The notes beneath the pieces were generated by a model that was not told the origin of the DNA, did no database searches, and was given only the letters and a program-made list of their open reading frames with translations. A stretch of 64,000 nucleotides of DNA from Bacillota bacterium (lineage in GTDB: Bacteria; Bacillota; UBA4882; UBA10575), in assembly GCA_012838955.1 (NCBI GenBank), contig DUOH01000060.1, positions 1 through 64,000 of the forward strand, written 5' to 3'. The position numbers and the translations under genes are program-made. This document shows, piece by piece, positions 9,893-18,214 of the stretch (position 1 is the stretch's first letter; the number at the start of each line of letters is the position of its first letter).

Positions 9893-10774
9893 TCAGATCA
9901 ACCCTAAATCTTGTAATACCGACTTTAACTCTTCATGCTGTTCGGAAGTAGCTTCCACCAACGGCAACCGTAAAGAGCCAACCTCAAACCCTAAAAGCTG
10001 AAGAGCGGCTTTAACCATGATTGGGTTAGCGGTAATGAATAAGACCTTAAATAAGGGCAGCAATTCCTGATGGGTCTTGGCCGCTTCGCTTATTCTTCCC
10101 TGGACATAATCATCAACCATCGTCTTGAGCCGTCTTCCCACCACATGTGCAGCTACACTAATCACTCCGGCGCCGCCTACAGACATGATCGGCAAGGTTA
10201 GGCTATCATCACCACTGTACACTAAGAAATCCTTCGGTAAAAGCTTGATCATTTCCGCAGCTTGATTCAGATCGCCGGCCGCCTCCTTCAAAGCGACTAT
10301 GTTGTCAATCTGCGCCAATCTGACCATAGTCTGAGGAGTAATGTTAATTCCGGTTCTCCCAGGAATATTATAGACCATTACCGGTAATGAAGTAGTTTCC
10401 GCTATAGCCTTAAAGTGTTGAAAAAGCCCTTCCTGAGGCGGCTTATTATAGTAAGGAACTACTGCCATTATTCCATCTACTCCGGTCTTTTCCGCCTCTT
10501 TCGTCAATTCTATACTCTTTTTCGTATCATTTGTGCCTGTACCCGCGATCACAGTGGCCTTACCACCCACAGTCTCCACAACCGTTGAGAAGAGCCTGAT
10601 CTTCTCTTCTGTACTGAGGGTAGGTGATTCCCCTGTAGTACCGGCAATCACCAAACCATCCGAACCGTTTTCCACCAACCGTAAAGCCAATTTACTAGCG
10701 CCTTGATAGTCAACTTCTCCTTCTGCGGTAAAAGGTGTAACCATTGCTGTTAATAGACGTCCAAAATTTACCAC
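9893..10774 (-). CDS. dapA: 4-hydroxy-tetrahydrodipicolinate synthase
   Basis: Condenses pyruvate with aspartate semialdehyde, the first committed step to diaminopimelate, lysine and dipicolinate. A GTG start giving 293 aa is chosen because it follows a strong GAGGGGGG site; an ATG eleven codons upstream lacks one. The TIM-barrel signatures are present: GTTGESPTLSTEEK near residue 45, YNIPGRTGINI with the active-site tyrosine, and the Schiff-base lysine in VALKEAAGDL (about residue 160). It is the last gene of the operon and starts 37 bp after dapG. A terminator follows. Confidence 0.96.
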   Translation of the reverse strand: MVNFGRLLTAMVTPFTAEGEVDYQGASKLALRLVENGSDGLVIAGTTGESPTLSTEEKIRLFSTVVETVGGKATVIAGTGTNDTKKSIELTKEAEKTGVDGIMAVVPYYNKPPQEGLFQHFKAIAETTSLPVMVYNIPGRTGINITPQTMVRLAQIDNIVALKEAAGDLNQAAEMIKLLPKDFLVYSGDDSLTLPIMSVGGAGVISVAAHVVGRRLKTMVDDYVQGRISEAAKTHQELLPLFKVLFITANPIMVKAALQLLGFEVGSLRLPLVEATSEQHEELKSVLQDLGLI

Positions 10775-10811
10775 GTTGATTCCCCCCTCGCGCTTCATGC
10801 GTCTCATCTTT

Positions 10812-12032
10812 CTATCCTCCTAATCCGAACTCCTCATGTAAGGCTCGCAAAGCCCCGGACATATCTTCTTTCTTCACTAAACAAGCGATATTGGTATGCG
10901 AATCAGTAGTCTGAATGATTGAGATTCCGGCCTGATAGAGACAGGAGATCACCCGGGCCATTACCCCCGGTACCCCCCGCATTCCCGCACCGACCACAGC
11001 CACTTTAGCGTAGCCCTTAGCCGCGTCCATGGTCAACTTGGTATCGGCCAAAACCGCCTGGGCTTCCTCAAACCTCGCTTCTTCCACTATAAATGAGATT
11101 CTGTCCGGAGAGACTTGAATCATATCCACACTGATTCCGGCCTCCGCCAACAACTGAAAGACCTTAAGAGCCGTACCGTCTTGATTGAGGTTTCGGTCTG
11201 CTGTCAAAATAACCTGGGCGACATCGTTGATATACGCCAATCCAGTAACTACTTTATCTCCTTTAATCTCCACTCCAGAAATGCCTGGTCCGTCTGTAAT
11301 CAAAGTCCCCTCTTCCTCGCTGAAGGTCGATTTAATCCGCAGAGGAATCCGGGCTGACATGGCGATCTCTACCGCCCGGGGGTGAACCACCTTTGCTCCT
11401 AAGTGCGCCATTTCACTAACTTCACTGTAAGTTATCGTCTTTAGGAGCCGGGCTTCAGGAACCATTCTGGGATCAGCAGTCATCACTCCGTCCACGTCCG
11501 TATAAACCTCAACCTCCACTGCGTTTAGGGCAGCGCCTAAAGCTACCGCCGTTGTATCACTGCCGCCCCTGCCCAAAGTGGTGATCTCTCCTTCTGTGGT
11601 CACCCCTTGAAAACCGGCGACTACCACCACTTCGTATTCTTCCATGAGCTTCAGGATTTTTTCGGTTTTCACCTGAATAATACTGGCTTGAGTATGATGG
11701 CTATCAGTGATAATTCCGGCCTGCCCGCCAGATAAGGCAGTAGCGTTGATCCCGGCGGATCTTAAAGCTTGCGTCATGATCACGGCGGAGATAATCTCCC
11801 CGCACGACAGCAAGAGATCAAATTCTCTCGGTCTTATTCGGCTATTCTCCTTCGTCGCCAAGCTGATTAAGGTATCAGTAGCATAGGGATCTCCCTGGCG
11901 GCCCATGGCGGAGACTACTATAACCAGCCTACAGCCTTTTTTCAATCCTTCTCGAATCTTTCCGACAACCTGTTTCCTCTGATCCTGGGTAGCCACGGAA
12001 GTTCCACCAAACTTTTGCACCAGAATCTTCAC
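10812..12032 (-). CDS. dapG: Aspartate kinase (DapG/LysC type)
   Basis: Phosphorylates aspartate, the first step of the aspartate pathway. The 406-aa protein begins with the kinase signature MKILVQKFGGTSVA and includes GRGGSDTTAVALGAAL and DVDGVMTADPR. Two ACT domains follow from about residue 265, as expected for feedback control by an amino acid. By gene order (asd-kinase-dapA) it resembles DapG of Bacillus subtilis, which responds to diaminopimelate; the true effector is not visible in the sequence. It lies between asd and dapA in the riboswitch-led operon. Confidence 0.94.
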   Translation of the reverse strand: MKILVQKFGGTSVATQDQRKQVVGKIREGLKKGCRLVIVVSAMGRQGDPYATDTLISLATKENSRIRPREFDLLLSCGEIISAVIMTQALRSAGINATALSGGQAGIITDSHHTQASIIQVKTEKILKLMEEYEVVVVAGFQGVTTEGEITTLGRGGSDTTAVALGAALNAVEVEVYTDVDGVMTADPRMVPEARLLKTITYSEVSEMAHLGAKVVHPRAVEIAMSARIPLRIKSTFSEEEGTLITDGPGISGVEIKGDKVVTGLAYINDVAQVILTADRNLNQDGTALKVFQLLAEAGISVDMIQVSPDRISFIVEEARFEEAQAVLADTKLTMDAAKGYAKVAVVGAGMRGVPGVMARVISCLYQAGISIIQTTDSHTNIACLVKKEDMSGALRALHEEFGLGG

Positions 12033-12112: not shown

Positions 12113-13123
12113 CTATAATAAGTCCTTGTTCACTAGATACTCCGCGATCTGGACTGCATTAGTAGCTGCTCCCTTCAAGAGATTATCAGCCACTATCCAG
12201 AGGTGGAGACCGTTTTCTATTGAAAAGTCCTCTCTGATCCGGCCGACAAAAGTCTCATCCTTCCCGGAGGCCAAGATCGGCATGGGGTAGATATTACCTG
12301 CCGGATCATCCATGACCACCACACCCGGGGCTTTGGCCAGGATTTCCCGGGCTGCGTCCGGGGTTAACTTCTTTTTGGTCTCAATATTAACCGCTTCGCT
12401 GTGTCCTCTAAAGACCGGTACCCGAACAGTAGTTGCGGTCACCTTTATCTTAGGATCAATAATCTTCTCGGTCTCCTTGACCATCTTCCATTCTTCGGCC
12501 GTATAACCCGTCTCATCAAACCGATCTATATGGGGAAGTACGTTAAAAGCGATTCGGTGTGGGTAAACATGGTTCTCCATTTCATCGCCTTGCGCATAGG
12601 CCTTGATCTGTTCGTCCAGTTCCTGAATGGCTTTATGCCCCGACCCGGATACCGCCTGGAAAGTAGTGACTACTACCCTCTTGATGGTTGCAGCATCGTG
12701 CAAAGGCTTTAAGACCGCCACCATTTGAATGGTGGAGCAATTGGGGTTAGCGATAATTCTCTCTTTCCCCGTTAATACTTGGCCGTTAACCTCCGGAACA
12801 ATCAGGGGAATCTCCGGTTCCATCCTCCAGGCTTTACTGTTGTCAATGACCACTACCCCTTTTTCCGCGGCCAAAGGCGCTAACTCCCTGCTGGGTCCGG
12901 CACCTGCACTGAAAAGGGCGACATCCAATCCGTCAAACTTCGCCGGATCCGTCACTTCAATAGTATATTCCTTCCCACGGAAGTTGATTTTTCGCCCGGC
13001 AGAGCGTTCCGTAGCCATGAGCCTTAAATCTTCAACCGGAATTCCGCTTCTCTCCAGAACCCGGATCATTTCCTGCCCGACCGCTCCCCCAGCGCCCACT
13101 ACACCAATTCGATACTTTCTCAA
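12113..13123 (-). CDS. asd: Aspartate-semialdehyde dehydrogenase
   Basis: Reduces aspartyl phosphate to aspartate semialdehyde with NADPH. The 336-aa protein has the N-terminal dinucleotide loop GVVGAGGAVGQEMIRVLE, the catalytic cysteine in NPNCSTIQMV (about residue 128), the QAVSGSGHKA segment and the active-site region RVPVFRGHSEAVNIE. Translation probably starts at TTG behind an AAGGAGGA site. A 160-bp AT-rich gap separates it from dpaB and could hold an internal promoter; no clear one was identified. Confidence 0.95.
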   Translation of the reverse strand: MRKYRIGVVGAGGAVGQEMIRVLERSGIPVEDLRLMATERSAGRKINFRGKEYTIEVTDPAKFDGLDVALFSAGAGPSRELAPLAAEKGVVVIDNSKAWRMEPEIPLIVPEVNGQVLTGKERIIANPNCSTIQMVAVLKPLHDAATIKRVVVTTFQAVSGSGHKAIQELDEQIKAYAQGDEMENHVYPHRIAFNVLPHIDRFDETGYTAEEWKMVKETEKIIDPKIKVTATTVRVPVFRGHSEAVNIETKKKLTPDAAREILAKAPGVVVMDDPAGNIYPMPILASGKDETFVGRIREDFSIENGLHLWIVADNLLKGAATNAVQIAEYLVNKDLL

Positions 13124-13282: not shown

Positions 13283-13870
13283 TTAATCATACTTGATTAG
13301 AACAGGTTGGATCTGTGAAGCTTGCAGAGCCGCTGCTACCGTCGGTAAAAGTAGATCCATCTTCGCTACCAAAGAGCGGGGCTTACCTACGGGGTTATCC
13401 TGGCCAAACGGCACAAAGTAGAATAGCTTTCTATTGACCAAGGAGGCCAGGTGAATAAGGCTGACCCCCAATCCGTCATTGGTGGAGACTCCAATCACTA
13501 CCGGCCCGTTATTCCGTAGATGTGCTTTACAGGCCAAGGAGACCGGTGAATCGGAGAGCCCCAGCGCCAATCTGGCCAGGGTTGTTCCTGTACAAGGCGC
13601 CACTACCATCAGATCCAAAAGATTTTGCGGCCCGATTGGTTCCACCTCAACCAGGGTTCGCCATGGCTTCTTTCCGGTAATTCTTTGTAATTCTCCCTCC
13701 AGATCCTCGGCTTTTCCAAATCTGGTATCAGTATCCGCCACTGTAGAAGAGAGAATGGGAAATACTTCCGCCCCTGCTCGAACCAACCGCTCAATCTCGG
13801 GTATGACCTTGCTGACTGTACAATGGGATCCGGTCAGACCAAAGCCGATCCTCACCTCTGTTAAGGACAT
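13283..13870 (-). CDS. dpaB: Dipicolinate synthase subunit B
   Basis: Flavoprotein-like subunit (195 aa) of the spore dipicolinate synthase (SpoVFB). It begins MSLTEVRIGFGLTGSHCTVSKV, which is characteristic, and has the PQNLLDLMVVAPCTGTTLARLA segment and VIGVSTNDGLG. With DpaA it oxidises dihydrodipicolinate to dipicolinic acid in the mother cell late in sporulation. A strong GGAGGTG site precedes the ATG. It follows dpaA by 57 bp and lies upstream of asd, the same order as spoVFA-spoVFB-asd-dapG-dapA in Bacillus. Confidence 0.95.
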   Translation of the reverse strand: MSLTEVRIGFGLTGSHCTVSKVIPEIERLVRAGAEVFPILSSTVADTDTRFGKAEDLEGELQRITGKKPWRTLVEVEPIGPQNLLDLMVVAPCTGTTLARLALGLSDSPVSLACKAHLRNNGPVVIGVSTNDGLGVSLIHLASLVNRKLFYFVPFGQDNPVGKPRSLVAKMDLLLPTVAAALQASQIQPVLIKYD

Positions 13871-13927: not shown

Positions 13928-14836
13928 CTACACTCTTTTTTTGCTGAGGGCTTTCTTGATTAAGCTTGGGAGGCTGGAAGCAAGAATTTTTCCCGCAGTC
14001 TGTGGAGCGACTTTTCCCGGAAGGCCCGAGGCCAAAAAGGCTTTGAGCCCTCTTTTTTTCGCTGCCGCCAAATCAATCCCACCCGGGGCGGAGGCCAGAT
14101 CGATCAAGAGCAAATCCGGATTGGCCTCTGCTCCCTCGTTGATCATCTCTGCTGTTAATACCGGAGCGGGGATCGTATTAAAGACCAGATCCGCCCCTTT
14201 AATTTCTACCGCCAACCGGCTGAGAGGCACAGCCCGGCAGCCGATCTCAGCAGCTTCTTGCCGCTGCTTTTGATTTCTTGCTGCTATCACAACTTGAGCG
14301 CCTAAACACAGTAACCTTTGCGTCAAGGCCCTGGCTACCCGTCCATAGCCTAGAGTCAGACAGACGCTGTTATCTATGGTGAACTCCGTATGCTCCATCG
14401 CCAACTGAATGGCGCCTTCGGCCGTAGGAATAGCATTGGGGATCGCAATCTCATCCAATTCTGCAAATTCCAAAACCTGTTGATTGAAGCGTTCGGCTGC
14501 AGACCTCAAGGGCGTGGAAAGAATACCGGTGACAATCAAGGTATGCGGTTCCAATTGGCTAAAGAAGTCTTGATCAATGACAATCTGCAACTCTGAGCAG
14601 TTGGTCCGCACTTTCCCCGTTTTATCCACACCACTAATGGGGAGAACAACCACACCGGTATTCATCACAGCCTCTTCCAGCGAATCAGCATAAAACAGGC
14701 GGGAAGACGGTTTTGCGCCCGACAAACCCCAAACTTTAACCCAAGCCGCCTCTTCGCTTAAGGCTTCGGCCACCATAACTTGTCGGCTGTCTCCACCGAT
14801 CACTGCCACTCCCGTCTCTGCTAGACATGATGACAT
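13928..14836 (-). CDS. dpaA: Dipicolinate synthase subunit A
   Basis: Rossmann-fold dehydrogenase subunit (SpoVFA) of dipicolinate synthase. The chosen ATG gives 302 aa and follows GGGAGGAGGAG; an alternative start seven codons upstream overlaps that site. The N-terminal segment AVIGGDSRQVMVAEAL and the central nucleotide-binding loop TLGYGRVARALTQRLLCLGA (about 152-172) fit the family. It is placed between dapB and dpaB. Dipicolinate gives spores heat resistance, so this gene is normally expressed in the mother cell under sigma-K; here it also lies behind a lysine riboswitch. Confidence 0.95.
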   Translation of the reverse strand: MSSCLAETGVAVIGGDSRQVMVAEALSEEAAWVKVWGLSGAKPSSRLFYADSLEEAVMNTGVVVLPISGVDKTGKVRTNCSELQIVIDQDFFSQLEPHTLIVTGILSTPLRSAAERFNQQVLEFAELDEIAIPNAIPTAEGAIQLAMEHTEFTIDNSVCLTLGYGRVARALTQRLLCLGAQVVIAARNQKQRQEAAEIGCRAVPLSRLAVEIKGADLVFNTIPAPVLTAEMINEGAEANPDLLLIDLASAPGGIDLAAAKKRGLKAFLASGLPGKVAPQTAGKILASSLPSLIKKALSKKRV

Positions 14837-14927
14837 GGAAGTTACTCCTCCTCCCAAGATTACCAGGCATAAGTAATAGCATTATATTCTAAACCCGGTC
14901 GGGAGGTTCATTGGCCGGTCCCAATTG

Positions 14928-15728
14928 CTAATCCATAAGGTTTTCTAAGCCGTAGATTAAGCCTTTCATCTTTATAATCTTCCTGATTGCTAACAAAACC
15001 CCAGGCATAAATGAGGTTCTATCCAACGAATCGTGTTTGATGGTTAAGGTCTGACCGATCCCACCGAAGATCACCTCTTGGTGGGCGACCAACCCGGGTA
15101 ACCTGACACTGTGGATATGAACACTGGAGTAATCGCCACCTCTAGCCCCCTTTACCTTTTCCAAAGGCGCGGGTTTAGGAGTTAGGGCTTGCGCGCGGCC
15201 GTTCTTAATCATCTCTGCCGTCTTCATTGCTGTTCCGGACGGAGCATCAATTTTTCGATCATGATGCAATTCGATAATTTCCGCTTCCGGAAGATATTTC
15301 GCCGCCTCTTTGGCGAAGCGCATCATCAATACAGCGCCAATGGCAAAATTAGGAGCAATTAAAAGTCCTTTACCCGCTTGATCCGTCAAGGCGGCCATTT
15401 CTGCCAAATTCTCCTCTGTGAGGCCTGTGGTACCAATTACCCCATTCACTCCTGCTTCCAGAATAGCCTTGATATTCTCCTTTACTACTAACGGAGTGGT
15501 AAAATCAACCACCACATCCGGTTTGGTCTTTTGCAGTGTCTCCGTTAAGTTGCTGGAGATAACTACCTCCGTTCCTCCGACTCCCGTTAACGCAGAAACA
15601 TCGGTCCCGACTCCCGCCTTATCCACGGCGCCTACCAAAGACAGATCCTCTTGGGCGGTGACTGCCTTCATTACCTCCCGACCCATTCTGCCATAGGCGC
15701 CGGATACCACTACCCGTATTTTTTCCAT
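14928..15728 (-). CDS. dapB: 4-hydroxy-tetrahydrodipicolinate reductase
   Basis: Reduces the DapA product to tetrahydrodipicolinate. The 266-aa protein starts with the NAD(P)-binding loop VVSGAYGRMGREVMKAV and carries the family signature ELHHDRKIDAPSGTA (about 160-174). It is the first gene after the lysine riboswitch leader. In Bacillus subtilis dapB is elsewhere; its position at the head of this operon joins lysine and dipicolinate branches under one leader. Confidence 0.96.
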   Translation of the reverse strand: MEKIRVVVSGAYGRMGREVMKAVTAQEDLSLVGAVDKAGVGTDVSALTGVGGTEVVISSNLTETLQKTKPDVVVDFTTPLVVKENIKAILEAGVNGVIGTTGLTEENLAEMAALTDQAGKGLLIAPNFAIGAVLMMRFAKEAAKYLPEAEIIELHHDRKIDAPSGTAMKTAEMIKNGRAQALTPKPAPLEKVKGARGGDYSSVHIHSVRLPGLVAHQEVIFGGIGQTLTIKHDSLDRTSFMPGVLLAIRKIIKMKGLIYGLENLMD

Positions 15729-15826: not shown

Positions 15827-15855
15827 TGATAAAAGGTTGGCTTAAAGCCAACCTT
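15827..15855 (-). terminator. Expression-platform terminator of the lysine riboswitch
   Basis: Nine-base perfect arms AAGGTTGGC / GCCAACCTT (15833-15841 and 15847-15855), followed on the minus strand by TTTTATC. It lies 32 nt after the riboswitch core and about 100 nt before dapB. The placement fits premature termination when lysine is bound. Confidence 0.75.
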
Positions 15856-15887
15856 ACAATACGTCAAACCCAGACAGGGTCATCGGT

Positions 15888-16071
15888 GGTAAGATAGCTC
15901 TTCACCAAAGTGGTGACAGTATCACGGTTCTTCACCATGATCCCAGCCGGTTTTTTGGGCCCGCTTAAAAGCGAAAAAACCAACTTCGGCGGCGATACCT
16001 TTGGTTTGAGTTCCTCGACCTGCCCCGGTCTCCCTCAAATTACTCTTCATCAGCCGCGCCTCTACTCTACC
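15888..16071 (-). promoter_or_regulatory. Lysine riboswitch (L box)
   Basis: A 184-nt leader on the minus strand that has the conserved blocks of the lysine aptamer in order: AGAGGCGCGGC, AAGAGTA, AACTCAAACC, CGCCGAAG, GGCTGGGATC, ACTGTCACC and GAGCTATC. The closing helix P1 forms between GGTAGAGTAG (16062-16071) and CTATCTTACC (15888-15897). Order and spacing agree with the Bacillus lysC leader. It lies between a sigma-A promoter and an intrinsic terminator, ahead of dapB and the rest of the dap/dpa operon. Confidence 0.92.
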
Positions 16072-16159
16072 CCTGAGGTTATTCAAAGTTCTTCAGCACA
16101 TACAAGAAATCTATCGGTATATGCCGGACTATGAATAGCAACACTATTTAATTGAATAT

Positions 16160-16188
16160 ATTGTCCTATAATTATCCCTGTCTGTCAA
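16160..16188 (-). promoter_or_regulatory. Sigma-A promoter of the lysine/dipicolinate operon
   Basis: A consensus TTGACA -35 box (16183-16188) with a 17-bp spacer to a GACAAT -10 box (16160-16165), minus strand. It would start a leader of about 425 nt that contains the riboswitch. The interval 15729-16267 holds this promoter, the riboswitch and its terminator, and no protein gene. Confidence 0.7.
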
Positions 16189-16267: not shown

Positions 16268-16837
16268 TTACAACTTGGCATCAAAGTTGGAACCCGGCCG
16301 AAATTCTTCCTGTGCTTTTCCTTTGGTCACTGTGCGAGTTTCTCCGCCGGAGACATAGATCCGTCCACACTCCGGACAAACAGCAGTATACAATCGCACA
16401 GTCTGAAAAAGCACCTCTTTACCTTCTCTTTCTGCTTTGTCTTGATTCCGAACCACATGTTCCTGTTCATGGGCACGAACCTTCACGGCTGCTTCCTCCG
16501 GAGAAATCCGGGCGGCGCTTTTATATGATACTCCCGGATCATTGGATTCATCTTGATATTTACGGGATTCACAGGTTTCGCAATCCAGCAGCCCCAGTTT
16601 TTTTAAGACCCGGTCAGTCAATACTTCTGTCCATTCAGGTAGTTGCCGCCTACCGGGGTCGGTTTTATCCGTTGGCTTCATCTGATGATGGTGGCTGTCG
16701 GGGAAATTTTCTTCCCGAGCTTCCGGCGTTCTTACCTCACTCCCGGCCACCACCTGCTGAAACCGGCCGATCCGCGCCCCTTCATCAAACGTCGGGCGAT
16801 AATAATTTGGAAGAATGGATCCAAGCTTTCCGATCAT
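16268..16837 (-). CDS. SprA-related putative zinc metalloprotease
   Basis: A 189-aa protein with a disordered N-terminal third. A CETCESRKYQD segment (CxxC) follows, then the zinc-protease motif HEQEH inside KVRAHEQEHVV (about 119-129) and a second CxxC in AVCPECGRIYVSGGET (about 152-167). HExxH and the CPECG/GGET region are typical of the SprA-related family found in many spore-forming Clostridia. The substrate and site of action are not known. It lies between the YlmC-like gene and a terminator. Confidence 0.75.
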   Translation of the reverse strand: MIGKLGSILPNYYRPTFDEGARIGRFQQVVAGSEVRTPEAREENFPDSHHHQMKPTDKTDPGRRQLPEWTEVLTDRVLKKLGLLDCETCESRKYQDESNDPGVSYKSAARISPEEAAVKVRAHEQEHVVRNQDKAEREGKEVLFQTVRLYTAVCPECGRIYVSGGETRTVTKGKAQEEFRPGSNFDAKL

Positions 16838-16955: not shown

Positions 16956-17198
16956 TTACCCCTCTTCTCCCGTTTCTGCTGCCAACTCCACAAGGAGAAC
17001 GTCGGTACTGATCTTCCGTACGGCTTTCCACGGGATAATTCTTTCTTGCCTAAACGGCCATCTTCCTGAGGTCATCTTGAACGAACTAAGCTGACCCAGT
17101 CTTAAATCCAAATCTGCTTCCGGATAAAACAATACCCCTAACTTGCTACCATCAGTTAGGTTAATCACTTCTTTACCGTTTAAATCGGAAAGCCGCAT
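16956..17198 (-). CDS. YlmC/YmxH family sporulation-associated protein (PRC-barrel)
   Basis: A small PRC-barrel-type protein of 80 aa that begins MRLSDLNGKEVINLTDGSKLG, the family signature. The chosen ATG sits behind GGGAGGAGAGAG; a start eighteen codons upstream lacks a site. YlmC/YmxH proteins are conserved in spore formers, and their function is poorly defined. The gene lies 79 bp downstream of sigK on the same strand, which suits a role in late sporulation. Confidence 0.85.
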   Translation of the reverse strand: MRLSDLNGKEVINLTDGSKLGVLFYPEADLDLRLGQLSSFKMTSGRWPFRQERIIPWKAVRKISTDVLLVELAAETGEEG

Positions 17199-17277
17199 CC
17201 CTCTCTCCTCCCCTAACAAGATATGGCGCTGGAGAGGAATTATGCTTTCCACTCTTTAAACGTGATAGTTGCTCTCC

Positions 17278-17982
17278 TTATTTTTCCTCATTATGAAAGT
17301 CCTTGCACAACTTCTTCAAAGCTTTCTTTTCAATTCTGGAAACATATGAACGGGAAATCCCCAACATTTTCGAGATTTCCCTTTGCGTTTTGGTGAACCC
17401 GTTCTTTAACCCGTAACGGAGTTCTATGACCTTCCGTTCCCGCGGACTTAGAATATTCAGTTTCCTCCGTAACTGTTCCTCCTCCAGCTTAAACTCGACC
17501 GCCTCCGGTACTACATCAATCCCGGTATCCAAGACATCAAGCAAGGAGATTTCATTTCCTTCTTTGTCCGCGCCAATCGGTTCCTGGAGAAATAAATCCC
17601 CCTTGCTCTTTTTTATGGAGCGCAGGTGCATCAGGATTTCATTTTCAATACAGCGGGCGGCGTAAGTCGCCAATCTGGTGTTATGGTTTCTTTTATAGGT
17701 ATTAATCCCTTTAATCAAGCCAATCGTTCCAATGGATATTAGGTCGTCAATATCTTCTCCTGTATTGTCAAACTTCTTAACTATATGCGCCACTAAGCGC
17801 AGGTTCCGTTCGACCAAACAGTTTCTGGCCTCTTGATCCCCTCTTTCCATTCTAATAATCAATTCCCGCTCTTCTTTTTCTCCTAAAGGCAATGGAAAGA
17901 TATTGTTATTGGATATATACGAGACCAACCAGGCCAACCCGTCACAAACTCCGCTGAGCATAGCTCCTATAAAAGAAAGCAT
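17278..17982 (-). CDS. sigK: RNA polymerase sporulation sigma factor SigK
   Basis: Late mother-cell sigma factor, 234 aa with an ATG behind ACGGAGGTG. A hydrophobic pro-sequence (about residues 1-22, ending in LVSYISNNN) would be cut by an SpoIVFB-type protease, as in other pro-sigma-K proteins. Region 2 has NLRLVAHIVKKF and DDLISIGTIGLIKGI. Region 4 has LSPRERKVIELRYGL and a helix-turn-helix TQREISKMLGISRSYVSRIE. The gene is intact and is not split by a skin-type element. Its presence shows that the organism sporulates. Confidence 0.95.
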   Translation of the reverse strand: MLSFIGAMLSGVCDGLAWLVSYISNNNIFPLPLGEKEERELIIRMERGDQEARNCLVERNLRLVAHIVKKFDNTGEDIDDLISIGTIGLIKGINTYKRNHNTRLATYAARCIENEILMHLRSIKKSKGDLFLQEPIGADKEGNEISLLDVLDTGIDVVPEAVEFKLEEEQLRRKLNILSPRERKVIELRYGLKNGFTKTQREISKMLGISRSYVSRIEKKALKKLCKDFHNEEK

Positions 17983-18214
17983 TCCAGAGCACACCTCCGT
18001 AATCAGGGAGCACATACGCATTTAACCGCTGTATACTTTATGTTTCTTTCGTCCCGTATGTGCCAGTCCAGATCTCCAAGGTTATCTGGTAAAAAAAAAC
18101 ACCTCCTTTTGGAAACCACGCCGTTCGTGGACGGCTCTAGTCTACCCAAAGAGAGGCATTTCACCCAAAACCTGAAACCGGTTTTATCTTTGTCCGGCAA
18201 TAAGTTGTTTCTTT

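Follow-up and report, generated by a model that had tools for sequence, protein, structure and literature searches.

The dipicolinate synthase genes dpaAB are transcribed by sigma-K in both C. difficile and B. subtilis, and the sigma-K promoters of these organisms carry AC at -35 together with a sigma-E-like -10 element (PMC3789822). Lysine riboswitches (L-boxes) were surveyed in 2017; the operon table of that survey holds no dpa genes, and neither dpa nor spoVF is mentioned (PMC5584792). A search of the literature found no paper joining "lysine riboswitch" with "dipicolinate," although the layout described here may have been noticed earlier. A further point of comparison is sigG of B. subtilis, which lies behind spoIIGA-sigE and for which a hairpin was proposed to block translation of the read-through RNA (PMC5942855).

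By sequence comparison and RNA folding, we analyzed a window of 64,000 nucleotides from a Bacillota bacterium in which a lysine riboswitch stands at the head of an operon carrying both lysine and dipicolinate genes. We consider it likely, at a probability of roughly 0.8, that this is a two-promoter operon, with a riboswitch-led transcript made in growth and a sigma-K transcript made in the mother cell that bypasses the riboswitch.

Riboswitch leader and operon genes

The initial annotation had described a promoter, an L-box aptamer and a terminator ahead of dapB. All three were confirmed; the one point to correct is that every element lies on the minus strand, so that 16188 is the 5' end. The vegetative (sigma-A type) promoter, TTGACA-17-GACAAT (16160..16188), matches 10 of 12 consensus positions, and four relatives (L023-L026) carry TTGACA with a (T)AGGAGAAT -10 element in the corresponding position. 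An Infernal search with the Rfam lysine model, which had been proposed as a check on the aptamer, gave a full-model match to RF00168 at 15887..16072 (cmscan, model positions 1-182, E 6e-26) with 101.8 bits against a gathering threshold of 30. This L-box is the only one in the whole 2.52-Mb assembly, and the first gene after it is dapB, a lysine biosynthesis gene.

The 3' strand of aptamer P1, GCUAUCUUAC (15889..15898), doubles as the 5' strand of a predicted antiterminator, in which it pairs with GUAAGGUUGGC at 15857-15847 with an energy of -8.0 kcal/mol that was reached by 2.9% of shuffles. Because GUAAGGUUGGC overlaps the 5' part of the intrinsic terminator (AAGGUUGGC-UUUAA-GCCAACCUU followed by UUAUCAU; 15833..15855; -13.9 kcal/mol), the leader offers the usual choice between terminator and antiterminator. 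The two structures were mutually exclusive in silico, and omission of the 3' terminator arm turned the predicted fold to the antiterminator. Most other L-box-dapB loci also have a terminator downstream of the aptamer. These data indicate that the leader has the sequence potential for both structures, and we infer that this RF00168 leader responds to lysine. That the riboswitch is instead a decayed relic with no effect on the operon, as sister genera lacking an L-box at the operon head might suggest, is highly improbable in view of the full-length 101.8-bit match, the intact antiterminator/terminator pair and the conserved promoter.

The gene order dapB-dpaA-dpaB-asd-dapG-dapA, already given in the initial annotation, was borne out by NCBIfam models, with all six genes on the minus strand. 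dapB (14928..15728) encodes the 4-hydroxy-tetrahydrodipicolinate reductase of the lysine/DAP branch and dapA (9893..10807) encodes 4-hydroxy-tetrahydrodipicolinate synthase; each is the sole copy in the genome. Dipicolinate synthase subunit A is encoded by dpaA (spoVFA; 13928..14836, likely start ATG at 14836), which scored 312.5 bits with NF006162 (cut-off 261) and 281.3 bits with TIGR02853 (cut-off 319.65), and subunit B by dpaB (spoVFB; 13283..13870; NF006161, TIGR02852). They are followed by asd for aspartate-semialdehyde dehydrogenase (12113..13123; TIGR01296, NF011456) and by a dapG-type aspartokinase gene (10812..12032), the second aspartokinase of the genome being on contig C11.

An uninterrupted sigK (17278..18021, minus strand; TIGR02846, 347.9 bits) lies upstream of the operon, in the same order as in relatives, with ylmC/ymxH (16956-17252) between sigK and the riboswitch-led operon. 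Between ylmC and the riboswitch there is also a 189-aa ORF with an HEQEH motif (16268-16837, minus strand), for which no Pfam or NCBIfam match was found.

Promoter in the dapB-dpaA gap

A sigma-K-type promoter was located inside the operon at 14880..14908 on the minus strand, 52 nt upstream of the dpaA ATG. It consists of a -35 element AACC (14908-14905), a 17-nt spacer and a -10 element AATATAATG (14888-14880). The AC of the sigma-K -35 consensus, about 17 nt from the -10, is present in AACC with its 17-nt spacer; against the -10 consensus CATAnnnTA, the window has AATATAATG where most other lineages have CATATAnTG in the same place. Of 112 dapB-dpaA gaps, essentially all show the pattern AC-N17-[C/A]ATATAnT, in loci that lack an L-box as well as in those that have one. 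A promoter score of at least 7.8 was reached in 106 of the 112 gaps compared with 0.2% of dinucleotide shuffles, and the full-score form occurred in 67 of 112 gaps and in none of the shuffles; the score was written after the sequences had been seen, and the contrast with the shuffles is very large. These counts indicate that a sigma-K-type promoter is conserved in the dapB-dpaA gap; its AC at -35 and its sigma-E-like -10 agree with the sigma-K consensus of C. difficile and B. subtilis.

The window pattern was also tried as a genome-wide signature of the sigma-K regulon and was rejected, since its 8 matches were not enriched over the 13 of a reversed control. The identity of the promoter therefore rests on position and conservation, from which we infer that sigma-K uses it in this organism.

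The window and its class have a -10 element that starts with AATA and not with the canonical CATA. All 21 AATA-type loci (the window at 14888-14880; L023-L026, L034-L042, L066-L072) read GAATATA in place of CATATA, and this class-specific form might reflect an altered sigma-K specificity.

The proposed two-promoter operon would work as follows. During growth, transcripts from the sigma-A promoter would pass through the lysine riboswitch, which would act by transcription termination: low lysine would allow the antiterminator to form and dapB through dapA to be transcribed, and ample lysine would end the transcript ahead of dapB. During sporulation, sigma-K polymerase in the mother cell would start beyond the riboswitch, within the dapB-dpaA gap, and would produce dpaA-dpaB-asd-dapG-dapA at any lysine level. 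Such a transcript would encode the whole route from aspartate to dipicolinate and would omit dapB, the enzyme that draws the common intermediate toward lysine and diaminopimelate. The assignment of one transcript to growth and the other to sporulation is probable. With one copy each of dapA and dapB in the genome, the mother cell has no source of dapA other than the riboswitch-led operon, and the layout of that operon thus decides who gets the common precursor.

The initial annotation had left two possibilities, that sporulating cells escape the switch through internal mother-cell promoters or that spore dipicolinate is linked to the lysine pool. The first is favored because the sigma-K-type promoter is conserved in nearly all 112 loci regardless of the L-box; the intact sigK just upstream also counts for it. 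For the second we found no supporting sequence evidence. In its full form it would have dpaAB expressed solely from the riboswitch promoter, so that the lysine pool limits dipicolinate and low lysine in the mother cell licenses its synthesis. That dpaAB follow the L-box within a single operon agrees with this, as does the failure to find a terminator-like site in the dapB-dpaA gap of the window. We nevertheless regard it as unlikely, because a conserved sigma-K-type promoter lies directly 5' of dpaA, C. difficile and B. subtilis both depend on sigma-K for dpaAB expression (PMC3789822), and sister genera retain the operon with no L-box there.

A promoter-like sequence, TGGGCA-18-TATAAT, was also observed in the dpaB-asd gap (13240-13211, minus strand). 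This site, which close relatives did not show, could likewise free asd-dapG-dapA from riboswitch control.

Taken together, a riboswitch at the head of the operon and a mother-cell promoter placed right at the branch point would let one operon meet two needs, lysine and cell wall during growth and dipicolinate during sporulation.

Distribution of the layout

Among 250 genomes sampled across the phylum, 185 carry dpaA. The L-box-dapB-dpaA layout, counted by comparison of two match lists wherever dpaA had an L-box on its own strand some 1.1-1.3 kb upstream, was present in at least 29 of the 185 and in at least 12 families, Moorella included. The leader common to lysine and dipicolinate genes that the initial annotation had pointed out is thus real and recurs in many families; its suggestion that the arrangement is unusual is not supported by this count. 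In Moorella mulderi DSM 14980 (L238) the L-box and the internal promoter are both present, and the comparative data provide a prediction that can be tested directly in cultivable members such as Moorella.

Relatives with names place the window in a Hydrogenispora-like lineage of Bacillota. Across the window's taxonomic order, the block sigK-ylmC-dapB-dpaA-dpaB-(asd)-dapG-dapA turns up repeatedly, with some genes lost. The L-box precedes dapB in genera g1, g3 and g7, lies elsewhere, where present, in g2 and g4, and was not found in g5 and g6. In three loci of sister genera (L028, 6941-7114; L030, 5851-6024; L032, 2788-2963), the L-box stands before an NhaC-type transporter gene (PF03553 in all three checked). 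These L-boxes belong to the same riboswitch family, occur once per genome and come from the same organism family, but their target is the transporter and not a dap/dpa operon. The L-box target therefore differs within one family. In L138, L150, L152 and L160, a phosphoglucomutase-like gene (a PF02878 match in L152) replaces dapB 55-170 nt upstream of dpaA.

Possible pairing at the dpaA ribosome-binding site

As an addition to the two-promoter operon and not an alternative to it, we considered whether RNA from the riboswitch promoter pairs the dpaA ribosome-binding site with the spacer between -35 and -10. Dipicolinate synthase would then be poorly translated in growth, and sigma-K RNA, which lacks the pairing arm, would be translated. 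In the locus L104, for example, the spacer CCCCTCTTTCCC can pair with the dpaA Shine-Dalgarno (SD) sequence GGGAAAGGAGGGG. We put this lock at slightly below an even chance. The wider proposal, that in many spore-forming Bacillota the sigma-K spacer doubles as an RNA lock on dpaA in transcripts from upstream genes, whether for lysine or other growth functions, is equally tentative.

The statistics were obtained with 53 non-redundant dapB-dpaA loci (greedy sets at 65-80% identity), and a coarser redundancy clustering in which 100 of 112 loci were merged gave no lock signal. The spacer paired more strongly with its own SD than it did when partners were exchanged among loci (permutation z -7.1, n=53), a comparison that does not fully remove effects of genome composition. 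With composition-controlled shuffles the mean z was -1.12 and 13 of 53 loci fell under 0.05, and a mirror-image control was beaten in 40 of 53. Other genes of the operon gave mean z values of -0.42 to +0.30, compared with -1.34 for dpaA. Strong pairing was also seen in some loci with the phosphoglucomutase-like gene, and eight free-standing dpaA genes showed no sign of it. The SD was less accessible in the read-through RNA than in the sigma-K RNA in 44 of 53 loci (medians 0.18 versus 0.53). Compared with shuffled 5' segments, however, the effect on accessibility was modest overall (0.24 versus 0.31, p 0.008) and did not reach significance among the loci with an L-box (p 0.28).

In the window, the native pairing did not surpass that with swapped partners (residual +0.4), nor was the SD any freer in the short (sigma-K) RNA. 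Because of this residual, we do not claim the lock for the window; it may operate in many lineages and is not demonstrable here. If the lock holds, growing cells could transcribe through the operon to obtain lysine and still make no dipicolinate synthase, and the comparative data suggest a recurring RNA device that silences a spore enzyme on growth transcripts. The hairpin proposed for sigG resembles it in that the gene lies behind another operon and RNA started at the gene's own promoter cannot form the structure (PMC5942855); it differs in gene, sigma factor and sequence.

The leader itself resembles known L-boxes ahead of dap/lys operons in its aptamer, transcription-termination platform and lysine-pathway targets, and differs in that the target operon also contains dpaA and dpaB. 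The C. difficile dpaAB operon is similar in that a sigma-K promoter transcribes dpaA (PMC3789822), but it is listed with two genes only, and the L-box there precedes lysA-asd-dapA-dapB and lysC (PMC5584792). In the B. subtilis operon spoVFA-spoVFB-asd-dapG-dapA, which follows a ylmC/ymxH-type gene (Bacillus-type locus L073), the genes dpaA through dapA are arranged as in the window and a sigma-K promoter precedes dpaA (PMC3789822), whereas this locus has neither dapB nor an L-box upstream.
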